A stretch of DNA of 52,460 bases from Verrucomicrobiota bacterium (GTDB taxonomy: Bacteria > Verrucomicrobiota > Verrucomicrobiia > Chthoniobacterales > UBA10450). Below, one piece after another: positions 15,921 to 49,955 of this stretch. The stretch is from the NCBI GenBank assembly GCA_003218415.1, contig QHNK01000096.1, forward strand, positions 1-52,460, given 5' to 3'. Each line of letters starts with the position of its first letter. Positions within the stretch are counted from its first letter, which is position 1. Both the position numbers and the translations under genes were made by a program. A model generated the notes under the pieces. That model made no database searches. It was given only the letters and a program-made list of their open reading frames with translations, and was not told the origin of the DNA.

Positions 15921-16014
15921 TGTCATGTTGAGCGAAGCGAAACATCTCTAATTAATTTCTGTGGGGATCGATCTAAAAAATGGTCAGAGATTCTTCGCTT
16001 CGCTCAGAATGACA
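15921..16014. repeat. Inverted repeat of the GAGCGAAGCGAA family between exbB and exbD
   Basis: The left arm (15921-15949) holds TTGAGCGAAGCGAAACATC and the right arm (15986-16014) is its near-perfect reverse complement, containing GATTCTTCGCTTCGCTCAG. The arms are 29 bases with a 36-base AT-rich centre. The transcript would fold into one long hairpin between two genes of the same operon. A related but interrupted copy lies at 36228-36351. No open reading frame is present. Confidence 0.85.
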
Positions 16015-26455: not shown

Positions 26456-29400
26456 CTATCTAAAGTCGTGTGACTCGCTGCCGATGAGTTGTTCGTGCGC
26501 GAGCGCTCTGATCTGACGCGCTTTAATCAAAACTATATTGTCTGAATTTTGCACTTCCCCTTCGATGAGAAGAAAGGCTTCTTCGGTAATCACCAGCCGA
26601 AAATCTTCGAACAAGTCAGGATCGACAATCGCATTTGAAACGCCGGTCTCGTCTTCCAGGCTGATGAAAACAAATCCTTTCGCCGTGCCGGGGCGCTGAC
26701 GGCAAATCACATTGCCGGCGATCTGAACGATTGAACCGTGCCGGGCGTGAACTAGATCAATCGCTCGCCAAATGTTCGGCAAACATTCGCGCAGCAGTTT
26801 CATCGGATGCGGCCCAGTGGTCAGATTCATGGTTTCATAATCTGCGCGTACACGCTCGGGTAAGCTCATTGCTGCCAGCGGCAATCGCGAAGTCTGGGGA
26901 GCACAGGCTGCTAGCCTGTTGCGTCCGGCAGCTTGCGGGACGCTCTGTGTGTTTGCACGCGTGGGGTAGAAAGATGTTTGCGGCAAGCTGCCGCAAACTG
27001 CAGGCTGGCAGCCTGCGCTCCCCAGAATCGCGCGATTCAGCAAATCGTCGTGCACAGTTTCTTCCACCTCCCACATCGCGGCGCGGCGATGTTCGGCAAA
27101 ACAATTCAAAGCACCCAGTTCTGCCAATGTGCGTAATTCGTCTTTCGTCAGGGGAACTCTCCGCTTGAAATCTTCCAACGACTCAAATTGCCGATCTTGT
27201 CTTTGGCTGACGAGTTCTTTGGAGTGTTCCTGCCGCAATCCATTCGTCACGCATAGCCCGAGCCGAAATGTATTGTCGTCCACGACGCTGCAGCGCCAAT
27301 CTGATTTCATGACGCAGACCGGTTTGACTTTCACTCCGTGTCGCTGCGCATCTTTGACGATTGTCGCTGGCGTGTAAAAGCCCATCGGCTGATTGTTGAT
27401 GAGGCTGGCGTAAAATTCCGGCGGGCGATGCACCTTCAAATACGCGCTCCCGTACGCGAGAATGGCGAAACTGATCGCGTGCGATTCGGGAAAGCCGTAA
27501 AGCGCAAACGACGAGATCGATTGAACGATTTTCTCCATTTTGTCCGGCGCCACGCCTTTTCGCTCCATAGCGGCGCGCAATTTCACGCTCACTTTGTTCA
27601 TTCGTTCTTCGGAACGGTGGAAACTCAGTGCACGTCGCAACTCTTCGGCTTCGTCGCCAGAAAAATCCGCCATGACCATCGCGATCTTGAGCATTTGTTC
27701 CTGAAACAATGGGACGCCAAGAGTGCGCTGCAGCACTGGCTTCAATCGTTCGTCATAATATGTGATTGGCTCTTTTCCCGCGCGTCGCGCGAGATAAGGA
27801 TGCACCATGTCGCCCTGGATCGGGCCCGGCCGGATGATTGCCACTTCAATAACGACATCGTAAAAACATTCGGGCTTCATGCGCGGCAACGTCGCCATTT
27901 GCGCGCGACTCTCGATTTGAAAAACGCCGATTGTGTCGGCGTGCTGCATGATGTCGAAAGTCGCGGGATCATCTTTTGGAATGTGCGCCAGATCGAGCGG
28001 CCGCCCGCGTTGGCGGCAAAGCTCCAGCGCATCCTGCATCACTGACATCATGCCAAGCCCGAGGAGATCGACTTTCACGATGCCGAGGTCTTCGCAATCG
28101 TCCTTGTCCCATTGGGCGACGACGCGGCTCGACATGGACGCGTTCTCCAGCGGTACAAACGAACTGAGTTTGTTCTGGCAAATGATCATCCCACCGGAAT
28201 GTTGACCTAGGTGTCGTGGTAAGCCGTAGATTGCGTGATACAACCGGATGAACGCGGGCATGCGCGGATGATTTTTCGGCAAGCCGGCCTGCTCGATCTG
28301 CGATTCCAACTCGAGCGTGTGCGGAAAATCGCCGCTGGCAAACAGATGTGAGAATCGATCAATAATGCTTGGTGGAAAGTTCAGCGCTTTGCCAATCTCG
28401 CGCGCGGCGCTGCGTCCGCGATAACTGATCACGTTTGCGGTCATCGCAGCGCCGTGTTTGCCATAGCGGCGATAAATTTCCTGGATCACCGCTTCCCGGC
28501 GATCGCCGCTGGGGAGATCGAGATCGATATCCGGCCAACCTTTGCGGCTCTCGTTAAGGAATCGCTCGAAGACGAGATGACTTTCGACCGGATCAACCGG
28601 TGTGATCCCAAGGCAATAACAAACCGCGCTGTTGGCGGCGCTGCCCCGTCCCTGGACCATGATGTTGTGTTCACGACAGAAATTGACGATGTCCCAGACA
28701 ATCAGGAAATAACCGGGGAACCCAAGTTTCGTGATCAGCGCGAGTTCTTCCTCAATCTGACGTTTTACTTTCGCGCTGATGGCGGCGTAACGCTGTTGCG
28801 CGCCGAACCAGACGATGGTGCGCAAAAATGAATCCATGGTGTGACCGGCCGGAACGGGATATTCGGGAAATTCATACCCGAGATTTTCGAGGGAAAACGT
28901 GAGCCGCTCGGCCAGGCGCGATGTGTTTTCGATTGCTTCTGGCAGATCTCGAAAGAGTTCGCGCATTTCGCGATCACTCTTCAAATGCCGTTCGGCGTTC
29001 TGCGTCAGCAATTTCCCCGCAGCATCCAGGTGCGTGTGTTCGCGAATGCAGGTGAAAACATCCAGCACTTCGCGTCCGTACGGCTTCGCATATTGCACGC
29101 CATTCGTGGCGAGGAGCGATAATCGATTTGCACGCGCAAGATCAATCAGTTCGCGGTTGATGCGTTCCTCGCCGCGAATGAAATGCCGCTGAAGTTCTAC
29201 GAAAACATTTTCGCGACCGAAAGCATCGATCAACAATCGCGCGCGACCTTCTGTGCTCCCCAGCAGTACCACTAATCCTTTTGCAAATTGCGCGAGCTCA
29301 TCCCATCCCACCGCGCATTCCCCTTTTTCGCTGCGCAGATGCGCCTGGGTCAGCAGTTCGCACAAATTTTTGTAACCCGTGCGATTTGCAACCAGCACAG

Positions 29401-29590
29401 GTAAAATGCTGCCGTCTTCCATCGACAATTCGCACCCGATGATCGGTCGCACACCGTGCTCGCGCGCAGCGACAGAAAATCGTTGTGCGCCGTAAACGCC
29501 GTTGCGATCAAGCAATGCCATCGCTGGCATTTTCAGTTCCGCTGCGACTTCAGCTAATTGCTCGGGGAAAGAGCCGCCTCGAGATGACAA
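26456..29590 (-). CDS. dnaE2: Error-prone DNA polymerase DnaE2 (ImuC)
   Basis: A C-family polymerase used for SOS mutagenesis and lesion bypass with ImuB. In order: a PHP-like N-terminal domain (ALLDRNGVYGAQRF, IIGCEL), the palm with catalytic PDIDLD at 353-358 and KVDLLGLGMM, fingers, and an OB-fold C-terminus. Two oddities stand out. The frame opens at a TTG (SSRGGSFPEQLAEVAA) and lacks the first PHP metal motif (HxxSxFSxL) that normally precedes GxSxPEEL. An ATG only 17 bases upstream lies in another frame. Residues 856-899 are encoded by a palindromic element. It follows the palm-less imuB, whose stop lies 1-2 bases from the start. Confidence 0.93.
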   Translation of the reverse strand: MSSRGGSFPEQLAEVAAELKMPAMALLDRNGVYGAQRFSVAAREHGVRPIIGCELSMEDGSILPVLVANRTGYKNLCELLTQAHLRSEKGECAVGWDELAQFAKGLVVLLGSTEGRARLLIDAFGRENVFVELQRHFIRGEERINRELIDLARANRLSLLATNGVQYAKPYGREVLDVFTCIREHTHLDAAGKLLTQNAERHLKSDREMRELFRDLPEAIENTSRLAERLTFSLENLGYEFPEYPVPAGHTMDSFLRTIVWFGAQQRYAAISAKVKRQIEEELALITKLGFPGYFLIVWDIVNFCREHNIMVQGRGSAANSAVCYCLGITPVDPVESHLVFERFLNESRKGWPDIDLDLPSGDRREAVIQEIYRRYGKHGAAMTANVISYRGRSAAREIGKALNFPPSIIDRFSHLFASGDFPHTLELESQIEQAGLPKNHPRMPAFIRLYHAIYGLPRHLGQHSGGMIICQNKLSSFVPLENASMSSRVVAQWDKDDCEDLGIVKVDLLGLGMMSVMQDALELCRQRGRPLDLAHIPKDDPATFDIMQHADTIGVFQIESRAQMATLPRMKPECFYDVVIEVAIIRPGPIQGDMVHPYLARRAGKEPITYYDERLKPVLQRTLGVPLFQEQMLKIAMVMADFSGDEAEELRRALSFHRSEERMNKVSVKLRAAMERKGVAPDKMEKIVQSISSFALYGFPESHAISFAILAYGSAYLKVHRPPEFYASLINNQPMGFYTPATIVKDAQRHGVKVKPVCVMKSDWRCSVVDDNTFRLGLCVTNGLRQEHSKELVSQRQDRQFESLEDFKRRVPLTKDELRTLAELGALNCFAEHRRAAMWEVEETVHDDLLNRAILGSAGCQPAVCGSLPQTSFYPTRANTQSVPQAAGRNRLAACAPQTSRLPLAAMSLPERVRADYETMNLTTGPHPMKLLRECLPNIWRAIDLVHARHGSIVQIAGNVICRQRPGTAKGFVFISLEDETGVSNAIVDPDLFEDFRLVITEEAFLLIEGEVQNSDNIVLIKARQIRALAHEQLIGSESHDFR
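26894..27025. mobile_element. Palindromic element inserted in frame in dnaE2
   Basis: A 132-base segment bounded by CTGGGGAGC and GCTCCCCAG. The outer arms GGGGAGCACAGGCTG and CAGCCTGCGCTCCCC are near-perfect inverted repeats. Inside are smaller hairpins, notably GTTTGCGGCA-AGC-TGCCGCAAAC (26976-26998). Its length is 44 codons and its boundary falls on a codon edge, so it adds residues 856-899 without breaking the frame. It lies in the linker before the OB-fold region, where an addition is likely tolerated. This resembles the Rickettsia palindromic elements in principle, but no sequence relation is claimed. Confidence 0.8.
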
Positions 29591-29592
29591 TT

Positions 29593-30549
29593 TCAGTCAT
29601 AAATCCCATCCACCTTCCAAGTTCTCTCAGCTTCATGAACACGAACCAGATCACCGCTTTCCAGTTGCACATCCCATTCGGCGCGGGCCCAAGATTTTTC
29701 GCCCCACCAATTTCCAGAAATCAAATACGGCCCCTGTTGCTCGATGACTTTCCCGCAAATTTCTGCGCTGCGAAGATGCGCGGGCGTGTCTCCATCCACT
29801 AAAACTGATGCAGACACTGCGGGCCGAAATCTTCGTAACGCCAGCTTCAAGAATGCTGTGCGCTGAGGGCGATTGAGGTCAATCGCCCCTACCTCCCACG
29901 CGAATGGCTCCATTCGAAATGCATCTGGCCGATGAGTCTCTTCCAAAACCGGCGTGCCAACTCGGTCAGCGCCGAGAAGAGCGCTCAAACGTGCGAGCGT
30001 TTCTGATAGTTGATGCGGATTGCGCAGGGTTGTTTCAAATAATCCGAATTGTTCCCTGGCCGGTTTAATCGGCTGCGCGCTCAGCGCCACAGCAACGATC
30101 GGATATTCGGATTTAAAATTCTCCAGATGCGTCTGGAGCATGCGAAACAGAAGATCGACATCGTTTGTCGGCTCCGGAATTTTGAAAACGCGTTCGTAAA
30201 CTTGTTCGTTTGCGAACGTGATTTGCAGAGTCAGTTCTTTTGCGATGAGATAAATTGCGCGCAGCCGCACTGCGAGCTGCTCCAAAAAACGGCGCAGTAT
30301 GAACAGGAGCGGCTCGGCTGTTTCAATTTCATTTTCAAATTCGAACCTCTCCTCGAACGACTCCGGGGGTCGAACCAGTTTGAGTAATCGATTGGATTGC
30401 CCATTCGCCCGCTCCCACATTCGAACAGCTTCCGGTCCAAGCCGCGCGCCAAGCTGCTGCTTATCAAGTGCCGCCAGCTGCCCAAGTGTATGGATCCCCC
30501 ATTTGTGCAGGATCGCGAAGATTTCCTGCGCCTGCATGTCCCCTTCCAT
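29593..30549 (-). CDS. imuB: ImuB-like protein lacking the N-terminal polymerase-fold palm
   Basis: A 318-residue protein that matches only the C-terminal two thirds of ImuB, a catalytically dead Y-family polymerase that links DnaE2 to the sliding clamp. It begins in the helix-hairpin-helix thumb (AILHKWGIHTLGQLAALDKQ ... LGARLGPEAVRMWERANGQ), continues through the little-finger-like domain, and ends in the C-terminal WWGEKSWARAEWDVQLESG module. Typical ImuBs are about 480-550 residues. The palm (about 170 residues) is missing and an in-frame TAA lies four codons upstream. No imuA is present. A LexA-like palindrome lies 27 bases upstream, so the reduced gene still has an SOS-type control region. 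Confidence 0.82.
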   Translation of the reverse strand: MEGDMQAQEIFAILHKWGIHTLGQLAALDKQQLGARLGPEAVRMWERANGQSNRLLKLVRPPESFEERFEFENEIETAEPLLFILRRFLEQLAVRLRAIYLIAKELTLQITFANEQVYERVFKIPEPTNDVDLLFRMLQTHLENFKSEYPIVAVALSAQPIKPAREQFGLFETTLRNPHQLSETLARLSALLGADRVGTPVLEETHRPDAFRMEPFAWEVGAIDLNRPQRTAFLKLALRRFRPAVSASVLVDGDTPAHLRSAEICGKVIEQQGPYLISGNWWGEKSWARAEWDVQLESGDLVRVHEAERTWKVDGIYD

Positions 30550-32581: not shown

Positions 32582-32716
32582 TAGCCCAGCGTTTCAACGC
32601 TGGGTCATGATAGCGACATTTGCCAAGTCCCGAAAGGGACGGGAGAAAATTGCTTTCGTCCCTGCGGGGCTCGATTCCTTTCTTTTTCCGGAACCCAGCG
32701 TTAAAACGCTGGGCTA
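32582..32716. repeat. Nested hairpin repeat (CCCAGCGTT family) between dinG and lptF/G
   Basis: Two hairpins face each other: TAGCCCAGCGTTTCAACGCT at 32582 and a matching AACCCAGCGTTAAAACGCTG at 32692. Each is itself palindromic and the pair also forms a long inverted repeat. An inner AGTCCCGAAAGGGACG and CGTCCCTGCGGGG add further stems. It fills most of the gap between divergent genes and contains no ORF. Confidence 0.8.
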
Positions 32717-42325: not shown

Positions 42326-42367
42326 GTCGATTCCCAACCAGGAAACGCTGCAGCGCGTGACGCGCCT

Positions 42368-42525
42368 GAGCACCGTAGGCGCGGCATGTTTATAGAAGCC
42401 AACCCCTCCAATGCCTCAGCCCCGTAGGGGCGGCATGTGTCGTGACCAAGACGACATGTCGCTCCTACGGAGCTTTTGCTTTGGACTTGACTGGGGACTA
42501 TAAACATGACGCACCTACGGTGCTA
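42368..42525. repeat. Nested inverted repeat (CCGTAGG family) filling the ileS-lspA gap
   Basis: The outer arms are 28 bases. The left (42368-42395) starts GAGCACCGTAGGCGCGGCAT, and the right (42498-42525) ends ACGCACCTACGGTGCTA, its near reverse complement. An inner pair, CCCCGTAGGGGCGGCATGTG (from 42420) and ACGACATGTCGCTCCTACGG (from 42451), forms a second stem. The right end provides the TAG stop of ileS (42523-42525). It looks like two related copies nested or stacked. Confidence 0.85.
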
Positions 42526-45243
42526 AGCTTCGATAGCCGTAACCACGCTCTCGCACCGATCGCACAAATCCGGATGCGCCTTGCTCGCGCCGACGGTTGG
42601 CCGATGGCGCCAGCAACGTGCACATTTTTTATACGGCGTTTTCGTCACCGAAACGCTCGCTTCCTTCGTCTGGTGGATCGTCAGATCACTCACTATGAAG
42701 AATTCTTCGAGTTCTTCCTTGTCGATCTTCTCCGTGACGTCGGAGTCCGAATTCAACACGACCCGCGCTTCCAGCGTGTTGCCAATTAGTTTTTCCTGAC
42801 GCGCGCGCTCGATCGCCTGCCCAATCACGCTGCGTAATCTCAACAGCTCCGCCACCTGAGCACTGGTCCCGCCATCGCGGGATCGATCCTGTAGTTGAGG
42901 AAATTCCTCAAGGTGAACGGAACCCTCTGCTTCTGAATGGCGCCACGCTTCCTCGGCCGTAAATGCAAGAATGGGTGCCAGCAACCTGCACAGCACGTCG
43001 AAAATCTCATGCATCACCACTTGAGTCGCACGCCGACGCGGCGAATCCGGCGCATCGCAATACATCCGGTCCTTGGTGATATCGACATAGAGGCTGCTCA
43101 GATCGACGGCGCAAAACTGGTTGAGCGTGTGATAGATCTTGTGGAACTCGAACGATTCGTAGGCTGCTCGACAATCGCGAATCACTTCATCCATTCGCTC
43201 GAGAATCCAGCGATCAATTAAGCTCAAGTTTTTCCTGGTTTCCTGGTTTCCTGATTCGAAGTCATACAAATTGCCCAACAGAATGCGCAGCGTGTTTCGG
43301 ATCCGCCGATAGGTGTCGCCCAGACGGGTAAACATTTCCTCAGAGAACGGCACGTCGGCGGTGTAATCGATGCTGCTCGCCCAAAGCCGTAGCAGATCGG
43401 CGCCATACCGGCCGACGAAGTGATCGGCGGCCGTTGGCTTCTCGTACGTTCCCGATTTCGAAATCTTTTTGCCGTCAAGGTCGACAACGAAACCGTGTGT
43501 GACGCAAATTTTGTACGGCGCGCGATTATTCAGCGCGACGCTGGTCAAGAGCGATGATTGAAACCACCCGCGATGTTGATCCGTCGCTTCGAGATACATA
43601 TCAGCAGGATCGCGCAGCTCGGGATGCAGTGCGCAAACGGCTCTGTGCGAAACGCCGCTGTCGATCCAGACATCGATCGTGTCGTTGCGTTTCGTTGTGC
43701 CCGGCGGAAGCCCGAGTCTTTTCGCAAGGTCGCCATCGCTCAGTTCAAACCAAATGTTTGACCCGCGCTCGGCGACCAGATCAGCGAGCTTTCGGATGAT
43801 TTTTGCATCGAGAATGGCTTTCCCATCCTTCGAATAAAAAACCGGGAGCGGCACGCCCCAGCTGCGTTGGCGCGAAATGACCCAGTCGGGGCGCGATTCG
43901 ACTGTGCCCGCGATGCGATTCTCGCCCCATGCTGGAATCCACTTCACCTCGTTGTGAATCGCATCGAGCGCTTTGCCACGCAGCTCACCGATTCGGATGA
44001 AGAATTGCTCGACATTGCGAAAGATGATCGGTGTTTTCGAGCGCCAGCAATACGGATAGGAGTGATGAAACTTTTGCGCTCCCAACAACATTTCGCGTTC
44101 GCGCAGCAATTCGACAATGTCCCGATTGGCGTCGAAGACATATTTTCCAGTGAGATTTCGCAAACTGGCTTCCTCAGTAAAGCGGCCATGGTCATCGACC
44201 GGCGATAAGATCGGCAGGTTCTTTGCCATCCCCAAAGCGTAATCGTCCGCGCCATGGCCTGGTGCGATGTGAACTGCGCCGGTGCCGCTGTCCATCGTCA
44301 CAAAATCGGCAGTCAGCACGATAGCGTCACGATCGAGAAATGGGTGGCGCGCCTTGATTTTCTCGAGCTTGGTGCCGGAAAATGATGCGAGCGGTTCACC
44401 CGCGGGATGAAAGTTTGTGTTTGCGGAAAATTGCGGAACTAATTTCTCAGCGAGAAGCAAGGTCTCCGTCGCACCGTTGCGTGAGAATTTCTGAACGACG
44501 TACGTTTCGTCAGGATCAACCGCGATGGCCAAATTCGCTGGCAACGTCCATGGCGTTGTGGTCCAGATAGCGATGCTCGCGTTGTCTTTCCACTCACCAC
44601 TCGCGATCGGAAATCGGACGTAAACAGCGGTGTCGTCGCGCTCCTGATATTCCACTTCGGCTTCGGCCAGCGCAGTCTGTGCGCCGGTGCTCCAAAAAAC
44701 GGGCTTCTGCGCCTGATACACCAGCCCTTCCTCGACGAATACCGCAAAGGCGCGCAAAATTTCCGCTTCATATGTGGGATCCATCGTCAGATACGGATGT
44801 TCCCAATCGCCGAAGACGCCCAAGCGCTTGAATTGCTCGCGCTGGATGTTGATAAATTTTCGCGCAAACGCTTCGGATTTTTTGCGGACCTCCAACGGAG
44901 AAAGCGCCCGCGATTCCTTTACCACTTTGTATTCGATTGGAAGGCCGTGACAATCCCAGCCGGGGACGTACGGCGCGCGCTTGCCCAGCATCGTTTGCGA
45001 TTTCACGACGAAATCTTTTAGAATTTTATTAAGCGCAGTGCCCATGTGGACATCGCCGTTGGCAAAGGGCGGCCCATCATGCAGGACAAACAGTTCTCGA
45101 CCCTCTCGCGATTTCTGAATTTGCCGGTACAGGTGCGTCTCCTCCCAAGCCCTGAGCATCTCCGGCTCGCGCGCGGCAAGATTCGCCTTCATCGGAAATT
45201 CTGTCCGCGGCAGATTCAGCGTGTCTTTGTAGTTCTGGCTCAT
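42523..45243 (-). CDS. ileS: Isoleucyl-tRNA synthetase
   Basis: IleRS charges tRNA-Ile and edits mischarged Val. The class I motifs are PFANGDVHMGTALNK (HIGH as HMGT) and KKISKSG (KMSKS). The CP1 editing domain lies between them. The C-terminal zinc site CARCWRHRPTVGASKAHPDL followed by CDRC is present, marking the bacterial type. The track starts at a GTG, and the ATG three codons on (45243, MSQNYKDTLNLPRTEFPM) matches the usual IleRS N-terminus. Length is 906 residues. Its stop codon lies within the repeat. Confidence 0.96.
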   Translation of the reverse strand: MSQNYKDTLNLPRTEFPMKANLAAREPEMLRAWEETHLYRQIQKSREGRELFVLHDGPPFANGDVHMGTALNKILKDFVVKSQTMLGKRAPYVPGWDCHGLPIEYKVVKESRALSPLEVRKKSEAFARKFINIQREQFKRLGVFGDWEHPYLTMDPTYEAEILRAFAVFVEEGLVYQAQKPVFWSTGAQTALAEAEVEYQERDDTAVYVRFPIASGEWKDNASIAIWTTTPWTLPANLAIAVDPDETYVVQKFSRNGATETLLLAEKLVPQFSANTNFHPAGEPLASFSGTKLEKIKARHPFLDRDAIVLTADFVTMDSGTGAVHIAPGHGADDYALGMAKNLPILSPVDDHGRFTEEASLRNLTGKYVFDANRDIVELLREREMLLGAQKFHHSYPYCWRSKTPIIFRNVEQFFIRIGELRGKALDAIHNEVKWIPAWGENRIAGTVESRPDWVISRQRSWGVPLPVFYSKDGKAILDAKIIRKLADLVAERGSNIWFELSDGDLAKRLGLPPGTTKRNDTIDVWIDSGVSHRAVCALHPELRDPADMYLEATDQHRGWFQSSLLTSVALNNRAPYKICVTHGFVVDLDGKKISKSGTYEKPTAADHFVGRYGADLLRLWASSIDYTADVPFSEEMFTRLGDTYRRIRNTLRILLGNLYDFESGNQETRKNLSLIDRWILERMDEVIRDCRAAYESFEFHKIYHTLNQFCAVDLSSLYVDITKDRMYCDAPDSPRRRATQVVMHEIFDVLCRLLAPILAFTAEEAWRHSEAEGSVHLEEFPQLQDRSRDGGTSAQVAELLRLRSVIGQAIERARQEKLIGNTLEARVVLNSDSDVTEKIDKEELEEFFIVSDLTIHQTKEASVSVTKTPYKKCARCWRHRPTVGASKAHPDLCDRCESVVTAIEA

Positions 45244-49787: not shown

Positions 49788-49955
49788 GGACACGAATTGC
49801 ACGAATTATCACGAAGGATTCGAAGGCTTGAAAGCACTGTACATCCATGAACTTCGTCTCTCGATCAGCATACATCCCGGCAATTCGTATCTGAGTTCGT
49901 GTGAATTCGTGGAATTCGTGCCGGAAATTGGTGTGAATTAGTGAAATTCGTGTCC
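49788..49955. repeat. AATTCGTG repeat cluster between sigma factor and kinase
   Basis: GGACACGAATTGCACGAATT on the left (49788 on) is mirrored on the right by TTCGTG, AATTCGTG and AAATTCGTGTCC units up to 49955. The arms are multi-unit versions of ACGAATT/AATTCGT in opposite orientation, separated by about 80 bases. It is AT-rich compared with flanking genes and has no ORF. Confidence 0.75.

Follow-up and report, generated by a model that had tools for sequence, protein, structure and literature searches.

An in-frame palindrome in dnaE2 of a Verrucomicrobiota bacterium and a related RAYT clade within the reading frames of conserved proteins

The error-prone polymerase gene dnaE2 of a Verrucomicrobiota bacterium (assembly GCA_003218415.1, contig QHNK01000096.1) contains a 132-bp palindrome translated in frame, which is very probably a tolerated, non-autonomous dimer of terminal inverted repeats (TIRs) mobilized in trans by a RAYT (REP-associated tyrosine transposase), the best candidate for the mover being a RAYT embedded in the RecG protein of the same genome. 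The palindrome story extends further, to whole transposase genes that carry the same ends and lie in frame in recG and other genes.

The palindrome in DnaE2 and its copies

In the window, by which we mean the whole 52,460-nt stretch analyzed, dnaE2 occupies positions 26456..29590 of the minus strand and encodes an error-prone DNA polymerase III alpha of 1044 aa as read, with a probably truncated 5' end. The REPIN-like element lies at 26894..27025, also on the minus strand, and consists of two terminal inverted repeats, TCTGGGGAGC...GCTCCCCAGA. Its 44-nt arms (plus-strand positions 26893..26936 on the left, with two smaller hairpins within, and 26983..27026 on the right) are 84% complementary and reach one base beyond the element on each side. 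On the minus strand the element folds with -83.9 kcal/mol (z = -9.5), a stability equaled by none of 200 shuffles. As 29590-27025 equals 855 x 3, the element spans codons 856 to 899, exactly 44 in number, and is read in frame as DnaE2 residues 856-899 (LGSAGCQPAVCGSLPQTSFYPTRANTQSVPQAAGRNRLAACAPQ). A sequence-only reading of this DNA had described a 132-base, in-frame inverted repeat of 44 codons, and both its coordinates and its codon numbers are borne out.

Pfam places PHP, polymerase, finger, helix-hairpin-helix and OB-fold domains around the insert, and an AlphaFold2 model based on 37 sequences predicts a disordered linker (pLDDT < 50) at residues 847-901 (26888..27052, minus strand), between the helix-hairpin-helix region and the OB-fold part, with confident helices at 835-843 and 910-920. 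Most of this linker, predicted to be disordered, is filled by the palindrome, in agreement with the earlier proposal that the insert sits in a tolerant linker before the OB-fold. The host protein had also been called an otherwise normal DnaE2, which is not quite accurate: at 29501-29600 it lacks the first ~15-18 residues, where relatives present 'YVELHASSAFSFL-RGGSFPEQLAE', and the stop codon of the preceding gene stands directly upstream. This is probably a small deletion or a misassembly in the metagenome-assembled genome (MAG).

BLAST searches with the element returned 22 matches, spread over about ten further locations in its own genome, and a single-arm pattern produced 13 matches against none for the reversed-pattern control, so the 132-bp repeat is a copy of a mobile element and not a chance palindrome. 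The copies fetched from this genome are mostly intergenic, with unrelated genes on either side; matches were likewise found in 32 of 35 genomes of the genus, whereas a search of the plasmid collection with the element gave none. Alignment of 74 end pairs, in both orientations, defined common ends of the form T|CTGGGGAGC...GCTCCCCAG|A. The element thus resembles REPINs and TIR dimers in being a short dimer of inverted repeats with numerous copies dispersed around the genome, and like them it lacks a target-site duplication. The flanking direct repeat AATCGCG had been put forward as a possible insertion footprint, but in 53 flank pairs of related copies the shared words were no longer than in mismatched flanks, which is the chance level. 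Neither tetranucleotide of the GTAG- and CGTC-type REPs occurs at the hairpin foot of the element.

Copy lengths, sorted by the remainder of division by three (17, 8 and 13 copies), show no bias to multiples of three. Copies have on average 3.2 of six frames open, against 2.2 in dinucleotide shuffles, a comparison whose sample includes in-gene copies and in which the palindrome couples its two strands; this is only suggestive of an element 'built to be open'. Among 79 sampled copies, 11 lie in genes (8 by a conservative coding-score test and 3 by reading of the host protein) and about 68 are apparently intergenic; genes are therefore not preferred targets of the short element. The in-gene copies are found in the PHP domain of dnaE2 (L146, L147, L151, L153), the dnaE2 linker (the window and L343), metH (L350, L366), recG (L382), ftsY (L165) and an unnamed gene (L344), so that, as with Rickettsia palindromic elements, the palindrome is translated in frame in unrelated proteins. 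The expectation that the repeat would recur in other coding genes is in this way substantiated. A single favored frame inside genes had also been anticipated; nine of the 11 copies share one reading frame, but by site the figure is only 4 of 6, and a strict preference is not supported. A strict coding-score test, weak in that it recognized only 4 loci, detected no gene-breaking, out-of-frame insertion.

Comparison of 80 related DnaE2 loci revealed that in most of the more distant Verrucomicrobia the linker comprises 29-42 residues and no hairpins, whereas Udaeobacter-like relatives have longer linkers, mostly with strong hairpins of differing kinds and always in frame. At least five unrelated palindrome families are present, every one of them in frame: the family seen in the window (L041, L069 and, by peptide, L045), the GGGTAGCGCACGCG family (L040, L046, L070), the ATCCCGAGCG family (L043, L044, L095, L111), the GATCGGTGATCCC family (L038, L039, L042; read from the peptide) and others (L037; L047, L053, L094). 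A joined-flank probe showed the linker to be interrupted yet open in almost every family genome that it matched. Rapid divergence of the linker prevented a precise empty site for the window insertion from being found in relatives at the level of DNA. As judged from these alignments, the DnaE2 linker is a repeated landing place of unrelated palindromes, and close relatives either lack residues 856-899 or carry unrelated palindromes there, as the earlier reading had suggested an alignment might reveal. Hence neither of the findings named beforehand as fatal to that reading was made: the homologs do not all carry the same 44 residues, and the repeat is not absent from other genes.

Other palindromes were observed in the window. 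An intergenic one at 15921-16014 (TGTCATGTTGAGCGAAGCGAAACATCT...GAATGACA) resembles the ATCCCGAGCG...GGAATGACA type located inside DnaE2 of L044 and L111, and inverted repeats with arms of 24-30 nt, not obviously of the same family, lie at or beside gene boundaries at 32582-32716, 42366-42527 and 49788-49955.

The presence of unrelated palindromes at one site argues against a dedicated function of the 44-residue peptide. That the insert is a functional DnaE2 module, such as a partner-binding segment kept for its benefit to the polymerase, is unlikely: a lengthened linker is found at this position in almost all family genomes, indicating that its length has at least long been tolerated, but the occupants of the spot belong to different families in different relatives, members of the element family mostly lie between genes and disorder is predicted for the segment.

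RAYT genes within host reading frames

A Y1_Tnp search of the source genome, a MAG that is 87% complete, identified only two matches, each in a long open frame. The first, on contig C124, is a RAYT with both element ends that lies in frame within recG, between helicase motifs Ia and Ib. The interrupted gene (L024:971-3772) is an ORF of 933 aa with no stop, the Pfam order of its product is wedge-DEAD-Y1_Tnp-Helicase_C, and both ends of the RAYT unit (L024 2165-2780) are 89-90% identical to those of the palindrome; the same ends thus surround a RAYT gene of the same genome, as in REPIN and TIR-dimer systems. No second recG was found in this genome, and further RAYTs with the element's ends may be missing from the incomplete assembly. 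The second match, on contig C92, is a different RAYT type with other repeats, in frame within carB; downstream of this insert (L035:1286) about 49 codons have been lost and the frame changes.

The recG RAYT has E. coli TnpA_REP (PDB 4ER8) as its nearest solved structure. NCBIfam REP_Tyr_transpos (NF047646) is the best family for the RAYT members, all of which match it, with scores of 73.6 and 70.3 bits for the two members shown against a curated cut-off of 80. The HUH motif and a single catalytic tyrosine (Y-I/V-x-x-N-P) are present, as is similarity to known RAYTs. These genes depart from RAYT/TnpA_REP genes in one defining respect, since most of them are not extragenic, free-standing genes. 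Using a recG-type RAYT profile built from alignment A1, we obtained 70 strong matches (E <= 1e-50) in the family, 62 of which lie in frames of 520-1619 aa, none with a stop. Operon junctions hold the remaining eight, as ORFs of 211-271 aa, in one orthologous setting for six and another for two, and most of them are still read through both repeat ends. The setting of six (L296, L298-L302) is a single operon junction in six genomes of three genera, at which the RAYT stop codon in several cases overlaps or touches the ATG of the next gene.

The range of hosts widens with the sampling. Many of the Y1_Tnp matches in the genus fall in frames of 570-1619 aa, the hosts being recG, carB, metH (two sites), alaS, rarA and tsaC; the family adds mqnA, thrS, valS and clpB, and the class (384 genomes; 44 of 44 strong matches in frames of 698-1513 aa) adds ispG, leuS, a restriction-modification gene, additional sites in alaS and one alaS that holds two RAYTs. 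Host names rest on a reading of the conserved sequences, backed by Pfam for recG, carB, alaS, ispG, thrS, valS, clpB and mqnA. The doubly occupied alaS (L388, G176:C141) has 1398 codons, with about 330 residues between its two RAYT domains, and the restriction-modification-type gene (L404, G424:C101) has 1622 codons and a carB-type RAYT in frame.

On the inferred tree, the recG-type in-gene RAYTs form one clade (100/100), which also includes a copy from carB (L204), implying that a single carB site has served two RAYT types. By contrast, 20 RAYTs from other clades of the same genomes stand free, as ORFs of 143-252 aa. At L217-L219 and L227 there are ordinary free-standing RAYTs accompanied by GCCGGGATCACCGATCCCGGC repeats; the repeat in places supplies their TAG stop codon, and it matches the DnaE2-linker type of L038, L039 and L042. 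In the recG genes of G007 and G019 (L195, L199), extra in-frame palindromes beside the RAYT produce mosaic linkers. Together, the sequences examined indicate that nearly all members of this RAYT clade are in-frame inserts within conserved proteins of the Verrucomicrobiae.

Empty sites, selection and competing explanations

Relatives provide empty sites for both insertions seen in the source genome. recG is uninterrupted in 31 genomes, carries the RAYT with both flanks in one frame in all 32 genomes for which both flanks are listed, and in five further genomes contains a short insert that is likewise in frame. For carB, 23 genomes are uninterrupted and 29 have the RAYT and both flanks in one frame, with three exceptions: two frames in G012, Ns in G016 and a partial RAYT beside an intact flank in G080. 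In the last (L331/L337, G080:C14), the carB N-flank and partial RAYT are followed in tandem by an intact, uninterrupted carB junction, and these may be filled and empty alleles of mixed strains joined by the assembler.

The HUH motif and the region of the catalytic tyrosine are intact in the RAYT copies read. In 18 close pairs, using unsaturated dS only, dN/dS of the RAYT core is 0.06-0.27, compared with about 0.03-0.13 for the host flanks, values that point to purifying selection on the core. An open frame alone would not conserve amino acids, and the RAYT is therefore probably useful to itself or to its host. In some carB pairs RAYT dS is lower than host dS (for L186/L196, 0.28 versus 0.95-1.0), suggesting that some copies moved or were converted after their hosts had split.

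Genes that host inteins are often conserved and mostly essential, and the RAYT hosts (recG, carB, alaS, metH and others) are of the same kind. The inserts might accordingly be removed beforehand, through RNA splicing as in IStrons, protein splicing as in inteins or programmed DNA excision. We regard such removal as very unlikely: Rfam identified no match, and hence no catalytic intron RNA of the IStron or group I type around the transposase, at four RAYT-bearing loci (L024, L035, L386, L387), Pfam scans showed only Y1_Tnp besides the host domains and no intein domain, and neither the strict keeping of frame nor the low dN/dS of the RAYT core would be needed for an insert spliced out at the RNA or DNA level. 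It is highly improbable that the genes with embedded RAYTs are defunct host genes or products of chimeric assembly. Most of the genomes are MAGs, and there are a few broken loci (carB of G012, G016 and G080, and the source genome's own carB, with its lost codons and frame change), but the same arrangement recurs in dozens of independent genomes, dN/dS is low in the host flanks on both sides and the source genome yielded no other recG. In-gene RAYTs are moreover present in two single-contig genomes, of 4.73 Mb (L386, alaS) and 5.68 Mb (L387, ispG, carB-type RAYT), so MAG assembly is not their cause. Finally, an immobile palindrome generated by local duplication or inversion in dnaE2 is hardly credible, as only the single site viewed alone would favor it and related copies with conserved ends occur elsewhere in this genome and in most genomes of the genus.

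Under the explanation that we favor, a TIR dimer mobilized in trans, the HUH/Y1 chemistry of a RAYT acting on single-stranded hairpins would move the dimer without target duplication, and the RecG-embedded RAYT is the candidate mover suggested by the shared ends. The element would have entered the dnaE2 region encoding the flexible linker ahead of the OB-fold and been kept there because its length is divisible by three, it has no stop in that frame and the loop tolerates it, DnaE2 being produced with a 44-residue unstructured insert. Gene-breaking copies would be lost, and in-frame copies in linkers would survive. The RAYT clade may have taken the same route, with translation running across both ends and the RAYT produced as one domain of an enzyme needed by the cell; the fusion proteins are presumably made and active, and the essential frame could both protect the element from loss and supply its expression. 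It is likely, on these grounds, that the clade is a near-obligate resident of reading frames, in which TIR-RAYT-TIR forms one open frame and an extra domain in RecG, CarB, MetH, AlaS and ThrS (related RAYT types occurring in ValS, LeuS, RarA, TsaC, MqnA, ClpB and IspG), is expressed only via the host gene, retains an intact active site and gives rise to the palindromes in DnaE2 and elsewhere, an intein-like lifestyle without splicing.

Relation to known systems

In-frame REPs inside genes, in Verrucomicrobia and in DnaE2 among others, were published in 2013 (Di Nocera et al., PMC3733652); in that study Opitutus terrae had the largest number of intragenic GTAG repeats, and DnaE2 was one of the hosts. 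The suggestion that the window element represents a separate, Verrucomicrobia counterpart of the Rickettsia elements consequently stands in that its in-frame palindromes are real, and loses part of its novelty. Compared with the GTAG/CGTC intragenic REPs of that paper, the window element is longer, has TCTGGGGAGC ends and lacks GTAG/CGTC feet. Sections 15 and 16 of the same paper do not describe whole RAYT genes within other genes. It does present TIRtrons or TIRYTs (TIR-associated tyrosine transposases), with GGGG-rich long TIRs (consensus GGGGWSAS) and dispersed TIR dimers. These likewise have a RAYT between long terminal inverted repeats, and the ends of our element resemble their GGGG-rich TIRs, whereas in our case TIR, RAYT and TIR together form a single open frame inside a host gene.

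Similarly, REPINs and RAYTs as treated in PMC8049555 (Bertels & Rainey) pair a non-autonomous inverted-repeat dimer with a vertically kept, catalytically intact HUH transposase, but the REPs there are extragenic and the RAYTs single-copy genes, whereas members of this RAYT clade are embedded in proteins of the host. Rickettsia palindromic elements (Ogata 2000, 2002; via PMC10969869), of ~150 bp and in ten families, are also translated in frame in unrelated proteins; they differ in phylum and ends, that source names no transposase for them, and most copies of the present element are intergenic. In tnpAREP subclass 2.4 (Quentin et al. 2018, PMC6006769), REPs enter RAYT genes in frame, without breaking them, while here it is the transposase gene that enters host genes. 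That survey discarded over-long proteins as fusions or annotation errors, and RAYT surveys that do so will miss the in-frame class. A search of the open-access literature, with subscription papers and supplements outside its reach, retrieved no report of in-frame transposases of the RAYT class in housekeeping genes. Since in-frame REPs have been published and no such report was found, the element falls within a described kind, of which the in-frame RAYT clade seems to be a new form.

These results portray a soil Verrucomicrobia lineage in which small mobile palindromes, and transposase genes with the same ends, are translated in linkers and loops of essential proteins. The literature covered leaves open what moves protein-coding palindromes; here a candidate enzyme with the same ends is lodged in an important frame of the same genome, which makes the question testable. 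The insertions also provide a catalog of linkers with room for 40 to 200 extra residues, in RecG, CarB, AlaS, ThrS and MetH, and they suggest a possible route by which a transposase may persist, as a tolerated domain of an indispensable enzyme.
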